From contig NZ_RDBN01000021.1 of the NCBI RefSeq assembly GCF_008042075.1, positions 540,490 through 604,489 on the forward strand: a stretch of DNA of 64,000 nt, written 5' to 3'. The notes beneath the pieces are model-generated. The model did no database searches and had not been told where the DNA came from. It was given only the letters and a program-made list of their open reading frames with translations. Below, in pieces: positions 4,366 through 15,284 of this stretch (position 1 is the stretch's first letter; the number at the start of each line of letters is the position of its first letter). Both the position numbers and the translations under genes were made by a program. The DNA comes from Streptomyces sp. UW30 (GTDB lineage Bacteria > Actinomycetota > Actinomycetes > Streptomycetales > Streptomycetaceae).

Positions 4366-5226
4366 GTGAGTGATGAAGTAGCACCCGGGTACGTCCGTGT
4401 TCGCCTTGATCTGTCGTACGACGGTTCCGAGTTCTCCGGGTGGGCCAAGCAGGCCGGTGGGCGGCGGACCGTGCAGGGGGAGATCGAGGATGCCCTGCGG
4501 ACCGTCACGCGGTCGGGCGGGACGACGTACGAGCTGACCGTCGCCGGGCGCACCGACGCCGGGGTGCATGCGCGGGGGCAGGTCGCGCATGTCGATCTGC
4601 CCGAGCAGGTGTGGCGTGAGCATCACGAGAAGCTGCTGAAGCGGCTTGCCGGGCGGCTGCCCAAGGACGTGAGGGTGTGGGCGCTGCGGGAGGCGCCCAG
4701 CGGGTTCAACGCGCGGTTCTCGGCGATCTGGCGGCGGTACGCCTATCGCGTCACCGACAACCCCGGCGGTGTCGATCCGCTGCTGCGGGGTCATGTGCTC
4801 TGGCACGACTGGCCGCTTGACGTCGACGCCATGAACGAGGCGGCGCGACGGCTGCTCGGGGAGCACGACTTCGCCGCCTACTGCAAGAAGCGGGAGGGTG
4901 CCACCACCATCCGTACGCTTCAGGAGCTGAGCCTGGTGCGGGGGGACGACGGGATCGTCACCGCCACTGTGCGGGCCGACGCCTTCTGCCACAACATGGT
5001 GCGCTCGCTCATCGGGGCGCTGCTGTTCGTGGGGGACGGGCACCGGCCCGCCGACTGGCCGGGCAAGGTGCTGGCCGCCGGTGTCCGGGACTCCGCCGTG
5101 CATGTCGTACGGCCGCACGGGCTGACGCTGGAAGAGGTCGGCTACCCCGCCGACGAGTTGCTGGCGGCGCGGAACAAAGAGGCGCGGAACAAGCGGTCGT
5201 TGCCGGGGGCGGCGGGCTGCTGCTGA
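4366..5226 (+). CDS. truA: tRNA pseudouridine(38-40) synthase
   Basis: 286 residues, cytosolic, modifies U38-U40 in the anticodon arm of tRNAs. The catalytic Asp is Asp64 in [13 protein letters not shown]; the family motif [12 protein letters not shown] and the C-terminal [11 protein letters not shown] are present. The start is GTG at 4366 ([20 protein letters not shown]), with GAGAGGATC as ribosome binding site. The C-terminus is longer than in E. coli, with a Lys/Arg-rich end. In other actinobacteria truA closes this ribosomal cluster. Confidence 0.95.
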
Positions 5227-5243: not shown

Positions 5244-6230
5244 TCAGTCGTTCGACCAGGTCTGCAGGAGGTCGCCGAGGGCCTCCTCGGTCTCGTCGGC
5301 GTCGTGGCCGTCGTCGCGGGCGTCGGGGGCCAGTTCCACGTGCAGGAACGGGGCGTGCCGGTGCTCGGCCGACCTGCCCTGGACGTTCGTGGTGCCCTCC
5401 AGCGGGCAGCGCGCGGACCAGCCCCGGCAGACCCGCAGACCGTCCCCCTCCAGGCGGTCGGCCAGTGCCGAGGCCTCGCGGGACGTGCTCTGGGCGGAGC
5501 CGCCGGAGACGACGGCCTCGTAGGGGCGCTCGGACGACTCGGCGAAGCCGTGCAGTTGGAGACCGGGCACCCCGCGCTTCTGGAGTTCCACGACGATGGT
5601 GTGGAAGACGCTGTCCTCGCGGTGGGCGACGTCCGCGGCGTCCGATCGGCCGGCGTCGCGATGCGCCCCGGCGACGACCAGGGAGCCCGACGCGGTGCTC
5701 TCCAGCAGCCGGATGCCCAGTGCCTCGGTGTCGCGGTCGGACACGGGGTGCGGCACCTGGACGTTCCAGCGCAGGTCGGAGTCCGCGGTCAGGTAGAGGC
5801 GGCCCCAGCGTGCGGCCTCGCCGTTCGGCCGTAGGGCGGCGATCTCGTCGTAGCGCCGGCCCGAGTCGGTGTCGGTGAGGCGGGTGACGCCGAGGCCGAG
5901 GGGGGCCAGCTGTCGCTCCGCCTCGGCCGCGTCGCCGTCCAGGAGGTGCCCCACGCCGTCTGCCAGCTGGTCGAGTTGGGACTCGCCGGGCGCGGTGTAC
6001 GGGTCTTCGGGTGCGAAGTCGGCCGTGTACGTGAGGATCCGGCTGCGCAGGTCCACGAGTTCGCGCGCCTGCGGAACGGAATGTTCCGACGCTTCGGGCG
6101 AACTCGTATGACAACCGGCCAAGGCCAGGATCAAAACCGTTTGAGCAAGAATGCGAGCAAAACGTGACTGTCTTGTGACGTGAGAGACCGGTTGGGTTGT
6201 GGGGCGCGTGTGAATATGTCGCGGTGACAT
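5244..6230 (-). CDS. Lipoprotein, possible metal-dependent polymer hydrolase
   Basis: 328 residues. A long N-terminal segment leads to the lipobox ILALAGC (Cys40), so the mature protein should be a cell-surface lipoprotein. The C-terminal half has AGAHRDAGRSD, LQLHGFAE and PFLHVELAP. These spaced His/Glu motifs resemble zinc-carboxypeptidase-like folds and the phage/Bacillus poly-gamma-glutamate hydrolases, but I cannot confirm membership by eye. The start is ATG at 6230; an earlier Met at 6260 exists. Its 5' end overlaps the GTG start of the divergent capA-like gene by 7 bp. The position next to a CapA-CapB-CapC set supports a role in processing the same polymer; this is inference. Confidence 0.6.
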   Translation of the reverse strand: MSPRHIHTRPTTQPVSHVTRQSRFARILAQTVLILALAGCHTSSPEASEHSVPQARELVDLRSRILTYTADFAPEDPYTAPGESQLDQLADGVGHLLDGDAAEAERQLAPLGLGVTRLTDTDSGRRYDEIAALRPNGEAARWGRLYLTADSDLRWNVQVPHPVSDRDTEALGIRLLESTASGSLVVAGAHRDAGRSDAADVAHREDSVFHTIVVELQKRGVPGLQLHGFAESSERPYEAVVSGGSAQSTSREASALADRLEGDGLRVCRGWSARCPLEGTTNVQGRSAEHRHAPFLHVELAPDARDDGHDADETEEALGDLLQTWSND

Positions 6231-7426
6231 TTCGTAAGTCTCTCCGTATAGGTCGCTCACTGGCGATTCTGGGGGCTCTGGCCGGCCTCGTCGCCGCCTG
6301 TACCTCCGAGTCGGCCGGATCGCAGGTGAAGCCGGGTGGGCGCTCGTTCACCGTCGCCGCCGCGGGTGATGTGCTCATCCACCCCGAGCTGGTCGAACAG
6401 GCGGCCAAGGATGCCAAGAAGACCGGTGAGGGGCAGGCCGGGCTGGACTTCGGACCACTCATGGCCGGGGTGAAGCCGGTCATCAGCAAGGCCGATCTGG
6501 CCATCTGTCACATGGAGACGCCCGTCGGCTCACCCAAGGGCCCCTTCGAGGGGTACCCGGAGTTCCTGGTTCCACCGCAGATCCTCACGACGCTCAAGGA
6601 CGTGGGGTACGACACCTGCTCGACGGCCTCCAATCACACCTACGACCACGGTCTCAAGGCCGTGAAGCGCACCCTGGACGCGATGGACAAGGCGGGCCTC
6701 GGCCACACCGGTTCCGCGCGTACGCCCGAGGAAGCAGAGCAGATCAACATCCGGGACGTCAACGGCGTCAAGGTCGCCCATCTCGCCTACTCCTGGGAGT
6801 CCTTCCTCAACCCCACGCCCGAGAAGGAGCGTTGGGCCTTCAACCGGATCGGCTTCGACGCCATCAAGAAGGCCGAGGCGACGGCCCGCAAGAAGGGCGC
6901 CGAGGTGGTGATCCTCTCGCTGCACTGGGGCCTGGAGCACTACAACGAGCCGAGCGTCCCGCAGCTGCAGCTGGCGGAGCGGATCACCAAGGACACCGGG
7001 ATCAACCTGGTGATCGGGCACCACGCCCACGTGGTGCAGCCCATCCAGAAGCTCAACGGCACCTGGGTCGCCTACAGCCTCGGCAACCAGGTGGCCCGTC
7101 ACTCCTCGCCGAGCGGCCTCACCGAGGAGGGCGCGATCGGCTGGTTCGAGTTCAAGGAGACGACCGACGGCTGGGACGTCAGTGCCCGCTACCGCACCAC
7201 GCTGGTCGACATCCCGCCGGAGCTGGAGGAAGGCGAGAAGGCGCCCGAGGGCGCGGTCGCGGATCACCGGATGGTGGACGTGCAGGAAGTGCTCGACCAC
7301 CCGGGCGAACTGTCCGAGGACCGGCTCGCCCGCTACCAGCTGGCGGCCGACCGCACCCGCGGCTTCCTCTACAACCGGGGCGCCCCGGGCGGAGACGGCC
7401 TTGAGCAGCTCTCTCTCGGAACGTGA
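6224..7426 (+). CDS. capA: CapA/PgsA family lipoprotein (polyglutamate export)
   Basis: About 400 residues. The signal peptide ends in the lipobox GLVAAC (Cys26 if GTG at 6224 is used; a TTG at 6197 would add nine residues). The rest is a PGA_cap domain with a calcineurin-like metallophosphoesterase fold. Its motifs are AAAGDVLIHPE, ASNHTYDHG, ILSLHWGLEHYNEP and IGHHAHVVQP. In Bacillus, PgsA/CapA is the extracytoplasmic partner of the PgsBC synthase and is needed for polymer export. It heads a same-strand series with the HAMP protein, PgsB, PgsC and an NlpC/P60 protein. CapA-like proteins also occur alone in bacteria, but the neighbours here make polyamide synthesis the best guess. Confidence 0.85.
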   Translation: MTFRKSLRIGRSLAILGALAGLVAACTSESAGSQVKPGGRSFTVAAAGDVLIHPELVEQAAKDAKKTGEGQAGLDFGPLMAGVKPVISKADLAICHMETPVGSPKGPFEGYPEFLVPPQILTTLKDVGYDTCSTASNHTYDHGLKAVKRTLDAMDKAGLGHTGSARTPEEAEQINIRDVNGVKVAHLAYSWESFLNPTPEKERWAFNRIGFDAIKKAEATARKKGAEVVILSLHWGLEHYNEPSVPQLQLAERITKDTGINLVIGHHAHVVQPIQKLNGTWVAYSLGNQVARHSSPSGLTEEGAIGWFEFKETTDGWDVSARYRTTLVDIPPELEEGEKAPEGAVADHRMVDVQEVLDHPGELSEDRLARYQLAADRTRGFLYNRGAPGGDGLEQLSLGT

Positions 7427-7567
7427 CGAGCGACACACGCAGCTGTTGCGTCCCGGGACCCAACCCCGGCGCGAGTTAACAGTCTTTTAAAGGGACGGCG
7501 TCTCATGCCCGCGTCAGCGGTGGCTCCTGCGAGCGCCTGAGTAGTGAAGAGGCGAAGGAAACCACCG

Positions 7568-9904
7568 GTGACTTCAACCCGAGGTGCACGGCGTCCCGCA
7601 CGGGGCGGGCGGCGCCGCATGCGCAGACGCGCGGACATGCCGCTCCTGGGCGGTATACGACCGCCCATCGCGCTGCTGTGCCTGCTGATCCTCGCCCTGG
7701 CCGGGCTGACCGCCAAGGTGCTGGGCCCGGCCGGCGACCCGGTCGTACCGAAGGCGGTGCTGGGCTCGCAGCAGCACTTCGCCGAGGACGGCGCGATCGC
7801 CCTACGCGCGTCGATCGACGAGCGGGTCACCGACCTGGACCGCACCGCGGCCGCGCTGAACGCGGGCAAGCCGGCGGACCCGGAGCGGGTGCTGTCGGAC
7901 CTGAGCAACACGTACCAGAAGTGGACCGGCACCACGGTGCTGGACCTGGAGAGCGGCAAGGTGCTCGCCGCGCGGGGTGAAACGATTCCCCTTGCCTGGC
8001 TGGACAAGGACGTCCTGACCGGCGAGAACGCCCTGACGCCCCGCATGGTGCGCCTGAAGACCGGCGACGTCCGGCTGATGACGATGGCCCTCCTCGACTG
8101 GAAGGACCGTCCGCAGCAGCTGCTGATCGCTTCCAACAGCCTCTCCGTGCCCGCCATCAACCTGGGCCCCTTCCGCGCGATGGCGGTCGTGGCCCGCGGC
8201 GGCGAGGTCCTCGCCACGGCCGGCTTCGAGCAGGCCGAGGCGCTCAACTCGGACGCGGAGCGCAGCGAGCTCAACTTCCTGCAGAAGCAGATGAGCCGGC
8301 TGTCCGATCGGTCGGCCAAGGAGACCGAGGAGGACCCCGTCAGCGCACGGGAGCCCGGCTCCCGCGGCTACCCGGGCGTCAGCGGAACCCTGCTCGGCGA
8401 CTCCTACAACGGCCGTATCGCCACCGCCGGATACGCCTCCCTCGCCTCCGCCGACCCCGCGCAGCGGGGGAGCGTCGGCGCGGGCCTCGGACTGACGGTC
8501 GTGGCCATGCTGCCCGTGGTGCAGGAGCACGCCGTCGGGCAGGAACGCGAGCTGTACGGGCTGGTCGCGGCCGGCATCCTGGTGCTGTTCGGGCTGGTGG
8601 CGGCGGCCCTGCTGTGGGTGGCCGTGCAGCGGCCCCTGCTGGGGCTCTTCCTGGAGTCCCGCCGGCTGGCCCGCGGCGATCTGACCCGCCCCGTCGAGGT
8701 GCCCCGCTGGGGCGAGACCGCACGCGTCGGTGCCGCCCTGGAGCGGCTGCGGGTGCAGCTGTCCGGCGGGGCGGCCGAGCCCGGCTCCGGCGACGGCGTC
8801 GGCGTCGGCCGCAGGGGACGGCTCGGACTGCGGGTGCCGCTGGCGCTGACCGCCGTCCTGCTGTTGCTGTGGTGCGTGCCGGTCGGGCTGCTGCTGAACC
8901 GCACGGACGCCTCCGTGAGCGTGCCGAGCAGCATGGTCAGCGACCAGCGCGACCGCACCGACCTTGTCGCCGACCGGGTCCGCAGGGCCCTCAACGAGGC
9001 CCAGGCCGACCTCGTCTCCATCACCCGGCTGATCGACGTGGACGACCCCGACGCCACCACGGGTGTGCTCGACGACGCCCTGCGCAAGCACACGCGCTAC
9101 GGCTCCCTGTACGTCGTCGACAAGGGCGGCGACGTCGTCGCCCGCGCCGGGGAGGAGCCGAGCGCCGAGTGGGCTGAGGACGAGGGAGCCAAGGACGCCT
9201 CGCTCATCCGGGTGGCGGGCGAGGGCGGCAAGAAGCCGGTGATCCAGGCCGCGGCCGCCGTACCGGACGAGAAGGGCCTGACCCTGGTCGGCGAGATCCG
9301 GGTCGAGTTCCTGAACTCGCTGCTGGCCCGGCCCGGTCTCGGCGAGGTCCGCGTGGTCGACGCCAAGACCAGGACCATCGCCGCCAGCGACGGCTTCCTC
9401 GCCTTCGAGGACCTGCCGCGCCAGTCGCTCACCGACCTCGTGCGGGCCGGCGGCGTCAAGGTCGGCGCGGGCCCCGTGGAGAACGGGCTGCTGATCCGCG
9501 AGGGTCGCTCCGTCACCGTCGCCGCCGCCGCGCCCTTCTCCGGCGGTGGTGTCGCGGCCGACGTCGGCTGGACCGTGGTCAGCTGGCAGAACGCCAAGCA
9601 CTTCGAGATCGCCCCGTACGAGCGCGAGGACCGCAGCGTGCTCGCCGGGATGCTCGGGCTCGCCCTGATCGTGGTCTGCCTGGGCTGGATCCACCTGGTC
9701 GTGGTCCGGCCGCTTCGCGCCCTCGCGAGCGGCGCCGAGAAGCTGGCCGACGGCGACCTCAAGACCGTGCTGTACCCCCGCTATCACGACGAGGTGGGGG
9801 CCGTTGTCCGCAGCCTCGAACTGGTCCGTCAGCAGTTGCAGGCCCGCAGGCAGAACCAGGCGCGCCGCAGTGCCGAGCCCCGGCTCGGCGCCGGAGGAAG
9901 GTGA
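7568..9904 (+). CDS. Four-TM double extracytoplasmic-sensor/HAMP protein without output domain
   Basis: About 778 residues. The start is GTG at 7568 behind GAAGGAAACC; an in-frame GTG at 7544 is the alternative. The architecture is duplicated: a basic N-terminus, TM1 (PPIALLCLLILALAGL), an extracytoplasmic domain of about 280 residues, TM2 (GILVLFGLVAAALLWVAV), HAMP-like segment 1 (SRRLARGDLTRPVEVPRWGE), TM3 (LALTAVLLLLWCVPVGLLL), a second extracytoplasmic domain resembling Cache/PAS folds, TM4 and HAMP-like segment 2 (GAEKLADGDLKTVLYPRYHDE). It ends about 40 residues later with no kinase, methyl-accepting, cyclase or phosphatase domain. It overlaps nothing, and pgsB begins 7 bp after its stop, so translation is probably coupled. 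Function unknown; a regulatory or structural partner of the polymer synthase is inferred from the operon. Confidence 0.8.
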   Translation: MTSTRGARRPARGGRRRMRRRADMPLLGGIRPPIALLCLLILALAGLTAKVLGPAGDPVVPKAVLGSQQHFAEDGAIALRASIDERVTDLDRTAAALNAGKPADPERVLSDLSNTYQKWTGTTVLDLESGKVLAARGETIPLAWLDKDVLTGENALTPRMVRLKTGDVRLMTMALLDWKDRPQQLLIASNSLSVPAINLGPFRAMAVVARGGEVLATAGFEQAEALNSDAERSELNFLQKQMSRLSDRSAKETEEDPVSAREPGSRGYPGVSGTLLGDSYNGRIATAGYASLASADPAQRGSVGAGLGLTVVAMLPVVQEHAVGQERELYGLVAAGILVLFGLVAAALLWVAVQRPLLGLFLESRRLARGDLTRPVEVPRWGETARVGAALERLRVQLSGGAAEPGSGDGVGVGRRGRLGLRVPLALTAVLLLLWCVPVGLLLNRTDASVSVPSSMVSDQRDRTDLVADRVRRALNEAQADLVSITRLIDVDDPDATTGVLDDALRKHTRYGSLYVVDKGGDVVARAGEEPSAEWAEDEGAKDASLIRVAGEGGKKPVIQAAAAVPDEKGLTLVGEIRVEFLNSLLARPGLGEVRVVDAKTRTIAASDGFLAFEDLPRQSLTDLVRAGGVKVGAGPVENGLLIREGRSVTVAAAAPFSGGGVAADVGWTVVSWQNAKHFEIAPYEREDRSVLAGMLGLALIVVCLGWIHLVVVRPLRALASGAEKLADGDLKTVLYPRYHDEVGAVVRSLELVRQQLQARRQNQARRSAEPRLGAGGR

Positions 9905-9910
9905 CCGGCC

Positions 9911-11581
9911 GTGCTCTACCTCTACTTCGTGCTGCTGATCGGCGGCGTGTTCCTGCTGATCGCGGGCATCATCGAGCAGCGCAGGCATTACGCCGCCCTG
10001 CACACCATCCCGTCCCGGGTGCTCGTCAACGGCATCCGCGGCAAGTCCTCCATCACCCGGCTGTGCGCGGGTGCCCTGCGCGGCGGTGACCTGGTCACCG
10101 TGGCCAAGACGACGGGCACCGCCGCGCGCTTCATCCACCCGGACGCCACCGAGGAGCCGGTCTACCGCAAGTTCGGCATCGCCAACGTGGTGGAGCAGAT
10201 CGGCATCGTCCGCCGGGCCGCCACCTACCGTCCGGACGCCCTCGTCATCGAGTGCATGGCGGTCATGCCGGCCCTGCAGGAGGTCAACCAGAGCAAGCTG
10301 ATCCGCTCGACGATCGGCGTGCTGTGCAACGTCCGTGAGGACCACCTCGCCGAGATGGGCCCGACCTTGGACGACGTGGCGCGCTCGCTGTGCCGCTCCA
10401 TGCCGGAGGACGGCATCTGCGTCACCGCCGAGAAGGAGCGGTTCCACATCCTCCAGGAGGAGGCGGACGCCCGTAACTGCAAGTTGATCTACGCCGATCC
10501 GGAGACGGTCACCGACGAGGAGCTGCGCGGCTTCAGCTGGTTCACCTTCAAGGAGAACGTCGCCATCGCGCTGGTCGTGGCGGACCTGCTCGGCATCGAG
10601 CGCAGCGTCGCGCTGCAGGGCATGTACGACGCTCCGCCGGACCCGGGTGTGCTGTCGGTGGAGAAGTACGTCGCTCCCGACGGCAAGCGGCTCGCCTTCG
10701 CCAACGTGTTCGCGGCGAACGACCCCGAGTCGACGCTGATGAACATCAACCAGCTGCTCGACCTCGGCGCGATCCGCCGCCCCCTGAACGTCGTGATCAA
10801 CTGCCGCCCGGACCGGGTGGAGCGCAACGGGCAGATGGGCGAGATCATCCCCGACCTGGAGCCGGACAACGTCTTCGTCATCGGGCACCCCTCCAAGAGC
10901 GCCATCGACGCCATCCCCGCCGAGTGGCGCGACCGCGCGGTCGACCTGGGCGGCGAGCGTCGCGCGGCGGACGAGTTCATGCCGACGCTGCTCGGCCGGA
11001 TGTCCGACGGCTCCTCCCTGGTCGCCATCGGCAACATCCACGGGCAGGGCGAGGAACTCCTGGAGTACCTGGCCGAGCTCCCGGCGGACGAGAGCGACGC
11101 GGACGAGCCCGGGCAGCCGGCCGCCGCCGCACCGCACCAGCCGCAGCGCCTGGACCCGTACGCCTCGTACCCCACGGCCTACGAGGAGCGGTACCAGGCC
11201 TCGCAGACCCAGGAGATCCCGGTGATCACCATCCCGCAGCCGTCGGGACGGTATGCCGAGGCGCCGGGCGCGTATGCCGCGGCCGCGCCGGGCGGGGAGC
11301 ACAGGGCGCAGCCGTACGGCCAGGGCCAGTACCACGGGGAGAGCGGGCAGTACGGCCAGGGCCGGCCGCACGACTCAGGGCCGTCGTACGCGTCCGGTGG
11401 GCCGCAGGGCTCGGGGCAGGAGCCGTACGAGGGCGGGAACGCGGAGCTCTCGGCGTGGTTCCGCACCGCGCGTCAGCCGTCGCACGGGCCCGGTCAGGAG
11501 CAGCCCTACGGCGACGATTCCTTCGGCCGGCCACCCCGGCGGCCGACGGACGACGGAGGTGGCGACCCGTCGCGCGCATGA
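9911..11581 (+). CDS. pgsB: Poly-gamma-glutamate synthase ligase subunit PgsB/CapB
   Basis: 556 residues. An N-terminal TM (1-22) is followed by the Mur-ligase-like ATP site NGIRGKSSITR at 40-50. Family landmarks follow: KTTGTAARFI (66-75), IECMAVMP (113-120), NVREDHLAEMGPTLD (140-154), APPDPGVLSV (241-250), FAANDPESTL (267-276), NCRPDRVER (297-305) and GNIHGQGEELLE (374-385). These match Bacillus PgsB closely over about 390 residues. The enzyme activates the gamma-carboxyl of glutamate by phosphorylation and extends the polymer at the membrane. Unlike the roughly 390-400-residue Bacillus protein, this one carries about 165 extra C-terminal residues rich in Gly, Tyr, Gln and Pro, probably disordered. 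The GTG at 9911 follows GGAGGAAGG. Confidence 0.93.
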   Translation: MLYLYFVLLIGGVFLLIAGIIEQRRHYAALHTIPSRVLVNGIRGKSSITRLCAGALRGGDLVTVAKTTGTAARFIHPDATEEPVYRKFGIANVVEQIGIVRRAATYRPDALVIECMAVMPALQEVNQSKLIRSTIGVLCNVREDHLAEMGPTLDDVARSLCRSMPEDGICVTAEKERFHILQEEADARNCKLIYADPETVTDEELRGFSWFTFKENVAIALVVADLLGIERSVALQGMYDAPPDPGVLSVEKYVAPDGKRLAFANVFAANDPESTLMNINQLLDLGAIRRPLNVVINCRPDRVERNGQMGEIIPDLEPDNVFVIGHPSKSAIDAIPAEWRDRAVDLGGERRAADEFMPTLLGRMSDGSSLVAIGNIHGQGEELLEYLAELPADESDADEPGQPAAAAPHQPQRLDPYASYPTAYEERYQASQTQEIPVITIPQPSGRYAEAPGAYAAAAPGGEHRAQPYGQGQYHGESGQYGQGRPHDSGPSYASGGPQGSGQEPYEGGNAELSAWFRTARQPSHGPGQEQPYGDDSFGRPPRRPTDDGGGDPSRA

Positions 11582-11699
11582 CACCCGTCCCGCGCCCGGC
11601 GCCCGTTGCGTGCCCGGCATCCGCGGGGTGGGCGGCCCTTGTCCGCAGGCCGCCGCCCGCTCCGCCCCTGAACCCGCACCCCTTCGTCCGGAGACCCCG

Positions 11700-12182
11700 T
11701 TGACCACCGCCGCCCTGACCCCAGAGATGGCTGCCCTCGGCATCGCCATAGGCCTGTTCTTCTCGCTGCTCTGCTATCTCACGACCAACCTGTCGCCCGG
11801 CGGCATGATCACACCCGGCTGGATCGCGCTCACCCTCATCGAGGACCTGCAGCGCGCGGCCATGGTGGTGGGCGTCACCGCCCTGACCTACGGCGGCACC
11901 AAGATCATGCAGCGGCTGGTGATCCTTTACGGCAAGCGGCTGTTCGCCGCCGTGGTGCTGCTGGGCGTGCTGTTGCAGGCCACGGTGATGATCGTGCTCT
12001 CGCTCGAGTTCCCGCTGCTGTACGGCAACCAGACGCTCGGCTTCATCGTGCCGGGCCTGATCGCCTACCAGATGGTGCGCCAGCCCAAGGGGGCCACGCT
12101 GCTGGCCACCGGCACCGTCTCCCTCATGGCCTACATCGTCGTCGCCGCCGGCCTGCTGCTCGGCGTCATGCCGACCGTCTGA
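11700..12182 (+). CDS. pgsC: Poly-gamma-glutamate synthase membrane subunit PgsC/CapC
   Basis: 160 residues, four to five hydrophobic helices. Landmarks shared with Bacillus PgsC are GGMITPGWIAL (PGY/PGW motif), RLVILYGKRLFAAVVLLG and TLGFIVPGLIAYQMVRQ. PgsC partners PgsB to form the membrane synthase. I choose TTG at 11700 because GGAG at 11690-11693 lies 6 bp ahead; an ATG at 11727 is possible but has no ribosome binding site. The 118-bp gap after pgsB holds no gene. The frame is open far upstream, but that part is pgsB read out of frame. Confidence 0.9.
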   Translation: MTTAALTPEMAALGIAIGLFFSLLCYLTTNLSPGGMITPGWIALTLIEDLQRAAMVVGVTALTYGGTKIMQRLVILYGKRLFAAVVLLGVLLQATVMIVLSLEFPLLYGNQTLGFIVPGLIAYQMVRQPKGATLLATGTVSLMAYIVVAAGLLLGVMPTV

Positions 12183-12199
12183 GAATCCAGGAGCTAACG

Positions 12200-13276
12200 A
12201 TGGCAGGGAAGAAGAAATCGCGGCCCGTCGTCACGGGCCTGGTGCTGCTGGCGCTCGTCGGCACCTCCGGCTACCTCACGGTGGAGCTGCGCAAGCAGGA
12301 CGAACAGGGCGTCACCGAGGTGCGCAACGTCGGCGTGCTGGAGGGCGGCCGCAGCACCGGCGCCACCTCCGACACCGGCAAGGAGACCTGGTCGCGGCTG
12401 GAGAACCCGGCGCGGTCCGTGCTGCGCGGGGGCGACGGCCAGATCAAGGCCGTCTTCACGGACGGCGCGCGCACCGCGACGCTGACGGGGCCGGCCCGCA
12501 CCTTCCAGGAGCCGACCTCGACCGCGTCCAAGGTCAGCACCACGGACTGGGTGCGGCTGATGCCGGAGCCCTGGGCCAAGGGCGCGGAGCAGAAGAAGTG
12601 GTTCAAGGACTGGTACGCCGAGTTCAAGGACAGCAAGAAGGACGACATCTTCGCCTTCGCCTTCCAGTACGTGGCGGGCGCACCGGTGAAGAAGGACGCG
12701 GAGGGCACCGCCTACGCCGGTGACGCGAACTTCGGCCCGCTGAACACGACCGGGGCCGAGGGCGGCGACCTGCGTCTGGAGCAGTCCGACTTCTACGACT
12801 ACCTCGGTGTGCCGTACCCGTTCCGGGACGGCGTCGTCGGGCAGCCGGAGAGCGTGCGGGCCCGCTCCATCGACTGCTCGGGCTTCATGCGCATGGTGCT
12901 CGGCTACCGGGCCCGCTTCCCCCTGATGTCCTCGGACACCTCCGGCGACGGCCTGCCCCGCACCGCCAACGGCATGGCCCGCTCCAAGGTGGGCGTCGAC
13001 ATCCTGCCGCTCGCCGGTCTCTCGGCGGGGGACCGGCCTTCCGCCATCGACCAGCTCCAGCCGGGCGACCTCGTCTTCTTCAAGCTCGACACTCGCACCG
13101 CCCAGCGACTCGACCACGTCGGCATGGTCCTCGGCCATGACACCGAAGGGCACCTGATCTTCGTGTCGAGCCGCGAGGAGGTCAACGGGCCCACCATCGG
13201 CGACGTCGGCGGTGTGTCCCGGCTCGACGGCAACGGCTACTACGCGAAGACGCTGCGCAGCGCGAAGCGCCTGTAG
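12200..13276 (+). CDS. Membrane-anchored NlpC/P60 family hydrolase
   Basis: 358 residues. One N-terminal TM helix (about 9-26, VVTGLVLLALVGTSGYLTV) leads to a domain of about 170 residues with no fold I recognise. The C-terminal papain-like NlpC/P60 domain has catalytic Cys226 in RSIDCSGFMRM and His306 in LDHVGMVLGH. The family cleaves gamma-D-glutamyl bonds in peptidoglycan stems; the Bacillus gamma-PGA hydrolase PgdS also belongs to it. Because it follows pgsC by 17 bp, release or trimming of the polymer is at least as likely as wall cleavage; this is inference. GGAGCTAACG precedes the ATG. Confidence 0.85.
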   Translation: MAGKKKSRPVVTGLVLLALVGTSGYLTVELRKQDEQGVTEVRNVGVLEGGRSTGATSDTGKETWSRLENPARSVLRGGDGQIKAVFTDGARTATLTGPARTFQEPTSTASKVSTTDWVRLMPEPWAKGAEQKKWFKDWYAEFKDSKKDDIFAFAFQYVAGAPVKKDAEGTAYAGDANFGPLNTTGAEGGDLRLEQSDFYDYLGVPYPFRDGVVGQPESVRARSIDCSGFMRMVLGYRARFPLMSSDTSGDGLPRTANGMARSKVGVDILPLAGLSAGDRPSAIDQLQPGDLVFFKLDTRTAQRLDHVGMVLGHDTEGHLIFVSSREEVNGPTIGDVGGVSRLDGNGYYAKTLRSAKRL

Positions 13277-13300: not shown

Positions 13301-14185
13301 CTACTCGTTGGCCGCCGCCGACGCCTGTGCCTGACCCCGCCTGAGGATCTGGCGGAAGGTGAACTCCTCCAGCTCGTCGCTCACCTGGAAGGCCGCGGTG
13401 TCCTTGTCCGTCATGTCCTTGCCGCTGGTGAAGCCCGTGATGGTGAAGTAGGCGTAGCGGCCGTAGGAGTTGGACGTCGACAGGCAGACGGACGAGGTGC
13501 AGAAGTCCTTGATGCCCTTGCCGGACAGCGACCTGATGATGTCCTTCTTGGTGTTCACCTGGCCCTTGACCTTGGTGGCCTGCGCCGCGGTGTCGAAGAC
13601 GGCCACGCCGACCGTCACCGCGATGCCGTCCTTCACGTACGACACGCGCATGAAGCGGGTGCAGTCGCTGTTGGTGACGATCTTCGGGAGCCCGCCCTTG
13701 GTGACCGCGGAGCAGCTCTTGGTGTCGTCCGTCGCGCCCTTCTTGTACACCGCGCCGCCCACCGTCAGCTGGGTGCCCGGGAAGAGGATCTGAACGCCGA
13801 GCGGAGCGGTGTCCTTGCTCTTGCTGGAGATGAAGTCCTTCGGGTCCAGCGGCGGCGGAGCGCTCGTCGACGCGAACGACGGGGCGGCGCCCGACTCGCT
13901 CGGCAGGTCCGCGGTCCGGGGCAGCTGCGAAGACGGTTTGTTCGAGGCGGAGTTGCCGTCGTTCGCGGACACCACGGCCACGGCGACGGCGGCACCGATG
14001 GCGACGGTGGCCAGCGCGCCGCCGCCGACGAACAGCAGCCGGCGACGCTTGTTGCGGGTCTCGGAGGCCTCGGCGAGCGCGGCCCAGTCCGGGGTCTGAT
14101 CGGCGCCGCTGTTCCACGGCTGCTGGGATTGCGGTGTCCAGGGGTCCCACTGGGACTGGGGTCCCCCCTGCTGCCCATAGCTCAT
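13301..14185 (-). CDS. Membrane-anchored hypothetical protein
   Basis: 294 residues from ATG 14185 (MSYGQQGGPQSQWDPW); an ATG three codons earlier at 14194 is also possible. A Gln/Pro/Trp-rich cytoplasmic N-terminus of about 45 residues is followed by the basic stop ETRNKRRRL, one TM helix (LLFVGGGALATVAIGAAVAVAVV) and an extracytoplasmic region of about 220 residues. That region contains a Ser/Ala-rich linker and a compact C-terminal domain (DFISSKSKDTAPLGVQILFPG onward). No catalytic motif is recognised. Similar N-terminally disordered, single-TM proteins of unknown function are common in Streptomyces. It converges with the NlpC/P60 gene (24 bp between stops). Confidence 0.75.
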   Translation of the reverse strand: MSYGQQGGPQSQWDPWTPQSQQPWNSGADQTPDWAALAEASETRNKRRRLLFVGGGALATVAIGAAVAVAVVSANDGNSASNKPSSQLPRTADLPSESGAAPSFASTSAPPPLDPKDFISSKSKDTAPLGVQILFPGTQLTVGGAVYKKGATDDTKSCSAVTKGGLPKIVTNSDCTRFMRVSYVKDGIAVTVGVAVFDTAAQATKVKGQVNTKKDIIRSLSGKGIKDFCTSSVCLSTSNSYGRYAYFTITGFTSGKDMTDKDTAAFQVSDELEEFTFRQILRRGQAQASAAANE

Positions 14186-14840
14186 GGGGCGCATCTTAGA
14201 CGGAGCTGGGGTGTGCCGGTCCGCCCCAAGAGGCGCACAGGCCCCTATCGTTCAGTCGACGAGCGACCACAAAAGCGACATCTCCGGGTGGTTGGTACGA
14301 CGCGCCTCGTGGCATCTGTGGGTGGCGCTCGGGGCCGCGCTGGGGGCTCTCGTGGCGCGCACGGTGCGGGTGACCTCGGACGAAGGGATGGATCACGCGA
14401 TCGTCGTGCGGCGGCGCGGGTGTGGCCGGCCGGTGGTTCTCCGTATGACGACCCCCACTTCCTCCGCGGGGTGTGCTGAGCGTGCTGCGCGGTGCAGCGC
14501 AGGCCTTTTCTGGATGCGGTGACGTTGTGTGGTGCGGCGGTGACGGTGGCCGTTCATTGCTGGACGGGTGTTTCGGGGGGCCGGGCGGTTACGCTGGGGG
14601 TAGACAGGCAGGGGTGTCCGTGGGCAACCCGTTTTGACCCGGCCGCGGCGCCGCAGGTATCCTGCATGTTCGTTGTGTATTGGCTTGCTCATTCTCACGG
14701 GACGGGCCCTTACACCGGTCCACCGGGCCGATGACCAGCAATCCCACGTACGCGGTATGCGTCGCCGCAGTGGCTCAGGCTGTCGTGATCGTTTCGGTGA
14801 CCTGTTCAGGTCCATTCAATCGAAGCGAAGGCTACGAACC
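14186..14840. other. Gene-free stretch before rplM
   Basis: About 655 bp with no convincing gene; the open frames here have atypical composition. It holds the upstream region of the minus-strand membrane protein at its left end and the rplM promoter at 14634-14663, which leaves an untranslated rplM leader of about 170 nt. Confidence 0.6.
14634..14663 (+). promoter_or_regulatory. Housekeeping-type promoter of rplM-rpsI
   Basis: TTGACC (14634-14639) and TATCCT (14658-14663) are separated by 18 bp, a good match to the Streptomyces HrdB consensus. Transcription would start near 14670 and give a long leader that could carry regulation by a ribosomal protein. Confidence 0.6.
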
Positions 14841-15284
14841 GTGCGTACGTACAGCCCCAAGCCCGGCGATGTGACGCGCCAGTGGCACGTCATCGACGCC
14901 CAGGACGTTGTCCTGGGTCGTCTCGCCACCACCGCCGCGTCCCTTCTGCGGGGCAAGCACAAGCCGATCTACGCCCCTCACGTCGACACCGGTGACTTCG
15001 TCGTCATCATCAACGCCGACAAGGTGCACCTCTCCGGCAACAAGCGCACCCAGAAGATGGCGTACCGCCACTCCGGCTACCCGGGTGGTCTGCGCTCCGT
15101 CCGTTACGACGAGCTGCTCGACAAGAACCCCGAGAAGGCCATCGAGAAGGCCGTCAAGGGCATGCTCCCCAAGAACACGCTGGGCCGTCAGATGCTCTCG
15201 AAGCTGAAGGTCTACAAGGGTGACCAGCACCCGCACGGCGCGCAGCAGCCGCAGCCGTACGAGATCACCCAGGTCGCGCAGTAA
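14841..15284 (+). CDS. rplM: 50S ribosomal protein L13
   Basis: 147 residues from GTG 14841 ([30 protein letters not shown]). The family core [18 protein letters not shown] and the [20 protein letters not shown] segment are present, and the length is typical. The open frame continues upstream, but that part is not L13. rpsI follows at 42 bp, forming the universal rplM-rpsI pair. L13 is an early-assembly large-subunit protein. Confidence 0.97.

Follow-up and report, generated by a model that had tools for sequence, protein, structure and literature searches.

A predicted receptor-coupled polyglutamate-type synthase locus in Streptomyces

In Bacillus subtilis, PgsB and PgsC suffice for making the polymer, and its D/L composition is 5/95 without pgsA and 75/25 with pgsA (PMC6029982). 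The lasso-peptide epimerase MslH is known to belong to the CapA family (PMC9266682). Polyglutamate genes of Streptomyces have been mentioned in print, and the hydrolase PghP is known to require residues H40, E45, H78, H103 and E165 (both PMC6506827). Here we describe a locus in a 64,000-nucleotide stretch of DNA, referred to as the window, which is part of the 9.9-Mb genome of Streptomyces sp. UW30 (contig NZ_RDBN01000021.1, positions 540,490 to 604,489). Between truA and rplM it carries genes for a divergent lipoprotein, CapA, a membrane protein with dCache and HAMP domains, PgsB, PgsC, an NlpC/P60 cysteine peptidase and a lipoprotein-like protein. Judged from sequence, this gene set very probably serves to synthesise, modify and cleave a surface polymer of polyglutamate type. 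We read it, with a probability of about 0.6, as an envelope machine in which a gamma-polyglutamate-type synthase is coupled to and gated by a receptor, CapA epimerises and two hydrolases process the chain. What would be new within a known kind of polyglutamate synthase locus is a constant subunit that resembles a receptor, together with a family of hydrolases that current profile libraries do not see; a literature search of incomplete coverage returned no paper on this locus type or on a receptor tied to PgsB.

The locus resembles pgsBCA of B. subtilis in that its PgsB passes the equivalog profile, the PgsC and CapA families are both represented and the catalytic motifs are kept. It differs in having CapA first and as an optional component, missing in many loci, in the dCache-HAMP gene lying between CapA and pgsB, in the long low-complexity tail of PgsB and in the hydrolases built into the locus. 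The dCache-HAMP protein shares with the chemoreceptors Mlp24, PctA and CtaA and the kinase KinD a dCache domain set between two transmembrane (TM) helices and followed by HAMP; unlike them, it has no methyl-accepting, kinase or cyclase domain, consists of tandem modules, lacks R-x-W-Y and is tied to a polymer synthase. The divergent lipoprotein is similar to PghP and PghL (YndL), hydrolases of phage origin (PF05908, MEROPS M86), in its predicted fold and in how five invariant polar residues are ordered and spaced, but it is a lipoprotein with an extra N-terminal part and without a PF05908 sequence match, and its putative second metal ligand is Asp (H-x3-D) where PghP and PghL have Glu (H-x4-E). 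By type, the NlpC/P60 enzyme may be likened to PgdS (C40.005) as a cysteine peptidase adjoining a polyglutamate synthase; it would differ from PgdS in its single catalytic domain, which a membrane anchor and a long N-terminal part precede. CapA of the window falls in the same family as MslH and is distinguished from it as an extracellular lipoprotein in a polymer locus.

The synthase and its dCache-HAMP partner

PgsB of the window matches the TIGR04012 profile over positions 2-380 of 380 with 372.8 bits, the equivalog cut-off being 222.7. PgsC (CapC profile PF14102, 120.6 bits, cut-off 27) and CapA (PF09587, 219.5 bits, cut-off 27) also pass their profiles, and the identities that an earlier note on this DNA had proposed for the three proteins are thereby borne out. 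PgsB consists of a membrane helix, a Mur-ligase-like ATP enzyme core (9911-11080, 390 residues) and a low-complexity tail rich in Gly, Pro, Ala and Gln (11081-11578, 166 residues). Eighteen sequences, including both canonical enzymes and those of the type paired with a dCache-HAMP gene (sensor-type), have N40, G41, R43, G44, K45, S46, K66, E114, N140, D144, H145, N270, D271, R299, D301, R302, N375 and H377 in common without exception. Sensor-type PgsB forms a separate clade with fixed residues of its own and with catalytic motifs unchanged from the canonical ones; the window protein is 35-43% identical to canonical actinobacterial PgsB. A sequence search of the PDB found no credible relative of PgsB. 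The length of the tail is highly variable among Streptomyces, where the whole protein has 405-626 residues, and the tail is missing in Rubrobacter.

The dCache-HAMP protein of 786 residues is built of two dCache-TM-HAMP modules, with four TM segments and a pair of HAMP domains in all; the two halves of the protein are mutually homologous (hhalign 98.8%, E 7.9e-17). A model of the C-terminal module (pLDDT 82.0) has the dCache fold and aligns with Mlp24 at a VIA-align Z of 17.5 (rmsd 2.7, 206 residues aligned) and with CtaA and PctA at Z of about 17; Foldseek matches reach E values of about 1e-9 and TMt up to 0.69. The Pfam dCache_1 profile gives 26 bits, below its cut-off of 45. HAMP is matched with 53.5 bits, the protein ends about 20 residues past the last HAMP, and a Pfam scan identified no output domain of the kinase, methyl-accepting, GGDEF or cyclase kind.

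The association of this protein with PgsB is close. In a single-protein search of 81 Streptomyces genomes, strong matches (above 60 bits) were present in 26 of 26 PgsB-positive genomes and in 0 of 55 PgsB-negative ones, the latter yielding no more than generic HAMP matches (27.5 bits or less). The order dCache-HAMP, PgsB, PgsC was found in all 40 other Streptomyces loci that were taken out at length (in one of them, L047, the contig ends inside PgsB), and because the order is identical in all of these, with losses confined to optional genes, the gene set is not a product of chance. A dCache-HAMP gene adjoins sensor-type PgsB in every complete locus examined. It encodes a single-module protein ahead of pgsB in Rubrobacter (L111/L120), is represented by two separate single-module genes in Lentzea and Amycolatopsis (L122, L123 and L135) and has the fused form in Streptomyces and Streptacidiphilus; the pair also occurs in two more actinobacterial families (L234 and L235). 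Other actinobacteria supplied 15 canonical pgsB-pgsC(-capA) loci, none of which had such a protein within several kb. The 'built-in membrane sensor' of the earlier note is supported, in the form of a constant partner of this type of PgsB. The gap between the dCache-HAMP gene and pgsB is 6 bp in the window and in 22 of the 40 loci, and a 4-bp overlap joins pgsB to pgsC in 29 of 39 loci, spacings that probably reflect coupled translation. We also considered a fused gene for the dCache-HAMP protein and PgsB and rejected it: a coordinate check of L074 showed that its two genes occupy different frames, and elsewhere such long open frames resemble upstream in-frame extensions.

CapA and the two predicted polymer-processing enzymes

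The divergent lipoprotein (open reading frame open to 6260, lipobox LALAGC) belongs to no Pfam or NCBIfam family; no Pfam profile, PF05908 included, matches it at E of 1 or less, and a search of PDB sequences with its profile gave no credible relative. A model of the protein (pLDDT 82.8) is matched by Foldseek to PghP of phage PM1 (21dc, E 7.3e-6) and to polyglutamate-bound PghL (5onj, E 6.4e-5, TMt 0.63), and by VIA-align to PghP (3a9l, Z 13.7, rmsd 3.2, 174 residues aligned) and 5onj (Z 13.5). All of 94 relatives keep residues H171, D175, H213, H237 and E309, numbered from the open reading frame start at 6260; these residues follow the same order as the residues required by PghP, at similar spacing, a match by order and not by superposition. 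The gene was detected in 39 of 45 PgsB-positive Streptomyces genomes and as a weak copy in 2 of 105 PgsB-negative ones, and homologues occur in the loci of Rubrobacter, Lentzea and Amycolatopsis. The earlier note had called this protein, with its LHGF and HVEL motifs, PghP-like; the predicted fold agrees with that description, and no sequence profile does. Membership of the PghP family by sequence can be dismissed, as the likeness is one of fold alone. The modelled fold makes the lipoprotein a candidate polyglutamate hydrolase of a family beyond current profile libraries. It may represent a new family of enzymes that cut polyglutamate, a class of which few members are known. In another actinobacterium (L118) a domain of this lipoprotein-hydrolase type is found beside a canonical pgsB-pgsC-capA locus.

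CapA has a weak match to MslH, a peptide epimerase. By analogy, it is likely to be an epimerase-type subunit that sets the D-glutamate content of the polymer, and a subunit setting stereochemistry fits better than a part of the minimal synthase. Among 80 named loci, CapA is missing from 11 that have the lipoprotein and from 8 that do not. The polymer of such loci is predicted to be L-rich, because B. subtilis makes an L-rich polymer without pgsA and because the CapA family includes the epimerase MslH. Loci with and without CapA may therefore serve as a natural test of the role of CapA in D/L composition.

The NlpC/P60 enzyme (PF00877, 32.1 bits, cut-off 23) has its domain at residues 221-329 and one membrane anchor. 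Of its catalytic residues, Cys226 is present in 18 of 20 sequences and His306 in all 20. It is likely, from its sequence, to be a polymer endopeptidase or transferase. The proposal of the earlier note that it is a degrading enzyme agrees with the family and with the catalytic Cys and His, with the caveat that it may anchor the polymer instead of cutting it. In two related copies (L069 and L070) the replacement of Cys226 by Ser is accompanied by that of Asn329 by Gly; the synthase genes beside them are intact, and these copies are probably pseudoenzymes. Relatives of the enzyme (249-276 bits) lie divergent beside canonical pgsBCA in L106, L107 and L112, from another actinobacterial class.

Possible mechanism and rival explanations

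The analysis shows which genes are present, their order and co-occurrence, the folds and the conserved residues; from these we infer glutamate as the monomer, an action of the receptor on PgsB/PgsC and the cutting targets of both hydrolases. In the mechanism that we propose, PgsB, an ATP-dependent ligase, and PgsC, its membrane partner, would build the glutamate chain and export it. The dCache-HAMP protein would be produced immediately before PgsB and in step with it, and would join the same membrane complex; its Cache domains would bind an extracellular small ligand or the polymer itself, and the HAMP helices would then shift and contact PgsB/PgsC directly, turning synthesis up or down. Outside the cell, CapA would turn part of the L-residues into D, and at the cell surface the NlpC/P60 enzyme and the PghP-fold lipoprotein would cleave the polymer or otherwise process it. 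The receptor may act as a direct on-off switch of the polymerase: a protein without any other output and without any other constant neighbour points to direct gating of PgsB/PgsC, and gating of the synthase is what the linkage and the architecture suggest. More tentatively, and at somewhat less than even odds, the synthase may be the sole output of the receptor, with no kinase, second messenger or transcription factor involved, and the unit of dCache-HAMP, PgsB, PgsC and PghP-fold protein may be an actinobacterial one that is older than CapA and NlpC/P60 in Streptomycetaceae.

Several observations weigh against a receptor-gated polyglutamate synthase. R-x-W-[YF] is the amino-acid-binding motif of dCache receptors, and this stretch is absent from the five Cache modules examined; an amino-acid sensor of the R-x-W-Y type therefore finds no support. 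PgsC reaches 68.8 bits against TIGR04011, below the equivalog cut-off of 96.45, and on its sequence is best termed PgsC-like and not a certified equivalog. N-formylglutamate amidohydrolases are as close to the fold of the lipoprotein as PghP and PghL are (Z 13.9 and 13.4; 2odf and 2q7s tie). Finally, a scaffold without sensing would also fit the linkage and coupling of dCache-HAMP and pgsB.

Such a scaffold could be a structural subunit in which the Cache domain binds the nascent chain and the HAMP coils hold PgsB/PgsC oligomers, replacing the PgsA/PgsE of Bacillus. The minimal loci of Rubrobacter and Pseudonocardiaceae, composed of dCache-HAMP, PgsB, PgsC and a hydrolase without CapA, would suit this role, as would a Cache domain that lacks the amino-acid-binding motif. 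We nevertheless regard it as rather unlikely, because dCache and HAMP are elsewhere the domains of receptors and because CapA and dCache-HAMP occur together in most Streptomyces loci, so that one does not simply replace the other. Less probable again is a dCache-HAMP protein that relays a sensed signal to some other protein (for example an orphan kinase, phosphatase or anti-sigma factor), its linkage to pgsB serving co-regulation only. Many HAMP receptors act via partners, and the matches to the HAMP of this protein include kinases and the phosphatase SiaA; however, no conserved gene for a kinase, phosphatase or regulator was found in the set, of which PgsB and PgsC are constant members.

The nature of the product and the action of the NlpC/P60 enzyme may also be read in other ways. 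A polyamide other than gamma-polyglutamate, either a mixed glutamyl chain or a polyglutamylated carrier, is suggested by the modest identity of PgsB to canonical actinobacterial enzymes, by its own fixed residues and by the score of PgsC below the equivalog cut-off. We think such a product improbable, as PgsB lies 150 bits over its equivalog cut-off, its catalytic motifs are invariant and an enzyme of PghP fold is part of the set. The NlpC/P60 enzyme may join the polymer to peptidoglycan in the manner of CapD, given that the cluster genes include no recognisable CapD-type transpeptidase and that its single membrane anchor faces the wall. This role is somewhat unlikely: hydrolysis is the usual activity of NlpC/P60 enzymes, and the loss of Cys226 from two copies with the synthase kept argues that the enzyme is not always needed. 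If the receptor does gate the synthase, the locus would offer a two- or three-protein system for the direct study of HAMP control over a biosynthetic enzyme, for which the forms with one module, two genes and one fused gene would constitute a ready series of natural variants.

Distribution and the truA-rplM slot

The cluster is flanked by core genes, rpoA-rplQ-truA on one side and rplM-rpsI on the other (Table 1). Gene positions are as the earlier note had given them, including the start of the NlpC/P60 gene 17 bp past pgsC; the order PgsB, PgsC, CapA that it described was mistaken, the actual order being CapA, dCache-HAMP, PgsB, PgsC, NlpC/P60. The start codons bounding the divergent intergenic region are putative and were picked by signal peptides.

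Table 1. Features of the truA-rplM interval and its flanks, in window coordinates
Feature	Position	Strand	Basis
truA, core left flank	4366..5226	+	PF01416 120.3 bits
Divergent secreted lipoprotein, predicted polyglutamate hydrolase of PghP/PghL fold	5244..6178	-	Predicted fold, invariant residues, co-occurrence with PgsB
Divergent intergenic region, 45 bp, with hydrolase and CapA start codons at its ends	6179..6223	.	Sequence reading
CapA/PgsA-type lipoprotein, metallophosphatase-like fold	6224..7426	+	PF09587 219.5 bits
Double dCache-TM-HAMP membrane protein, 786 residues	7544..9904	+	HAMP 53.5 bits, two stretches
PgsB polyglutamate synthase	9911..11581	+	TIGR04012 372.8 bits, cut-off 222.7
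PgsC membrane subunit	11700..12182	+	PF14102 120.6 bits
Membrane-anchored NlpC/P60 cysteine peptidase	12200..13276	+	PF00877 32.1 bits
Conserved lipoprotein-like neighbour, outside the system	13301..14194	-	Stays in cluster-less truA-rplM slots
rplM, core right flank	14841..15284	+	Synteny with rpsI in related genomes

PgsB scored above the cut-off in 45 of 150 sampled Streptomyces genomes (about 30%), some of which have two or three copies. Among the 40 Streptomyces loci, NlpC/P60 comes next in 37, CapA lies upstream in 23 and the divergent lipoprotein is present in 32; eight of the loci (the window not counted) are situated at truA-rplM and the remainder at other sites. These counts rule out a core Streptomyces cluster and uphold the view of the earlier note that the cluster is accessory. 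The wider set of PgsB relatives comprised the best 80 of 317. A tree of 120 PgsB sequences places all 13 copies from truA-rplM within one clade of 17 members with full support, which fits one insertion followed by relocations. A single ancestral site for all loci is excluded, truA-rplM being the site of one subclade, with 13 of its 17 PgsB sequences there.

Where the cluster is missing, the truA-rplM interval measures 1.3-10.5 kb (17 genomes with rplM in reach). The shortest of these slots hold little besides the conserved lipoprotein-like gene, which was kept in 16 of the 17 cluster-less slots with the rplM end seen. The slot is therefore variable in both length and content, and the cluster is an accessory element. 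Some long cluster-less slots contain glycosyltransferase, acyltransferase and further surface-polymer genes: a cellulose-synthase-like GT2 with PMT in L200, an acyltransferase, a nucleoside triphosphate (NTP) transferase, GH113 and GT2 in L202, and GT4 in L210.

A phage origin was rejected, as 50,697 phage records contained 0 relatives of PgsB or of the lipoprotein. In L234, a 2.3-Mb actinobacterial metagenome-assembled genome, dCache-HAMP, PgsB and PgsC are separated from rplM by about 5 kb and lie on its far side relative to truA, possibly by coincidence. Copies of the same type of PgsB are also borne on plasmids in Streptomyces (hits H1-H6), examples being one near the end of a 180-kb plasmid of S. 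finlayi and one on a 1.8-Mb plasmid of S. clavuligerus.

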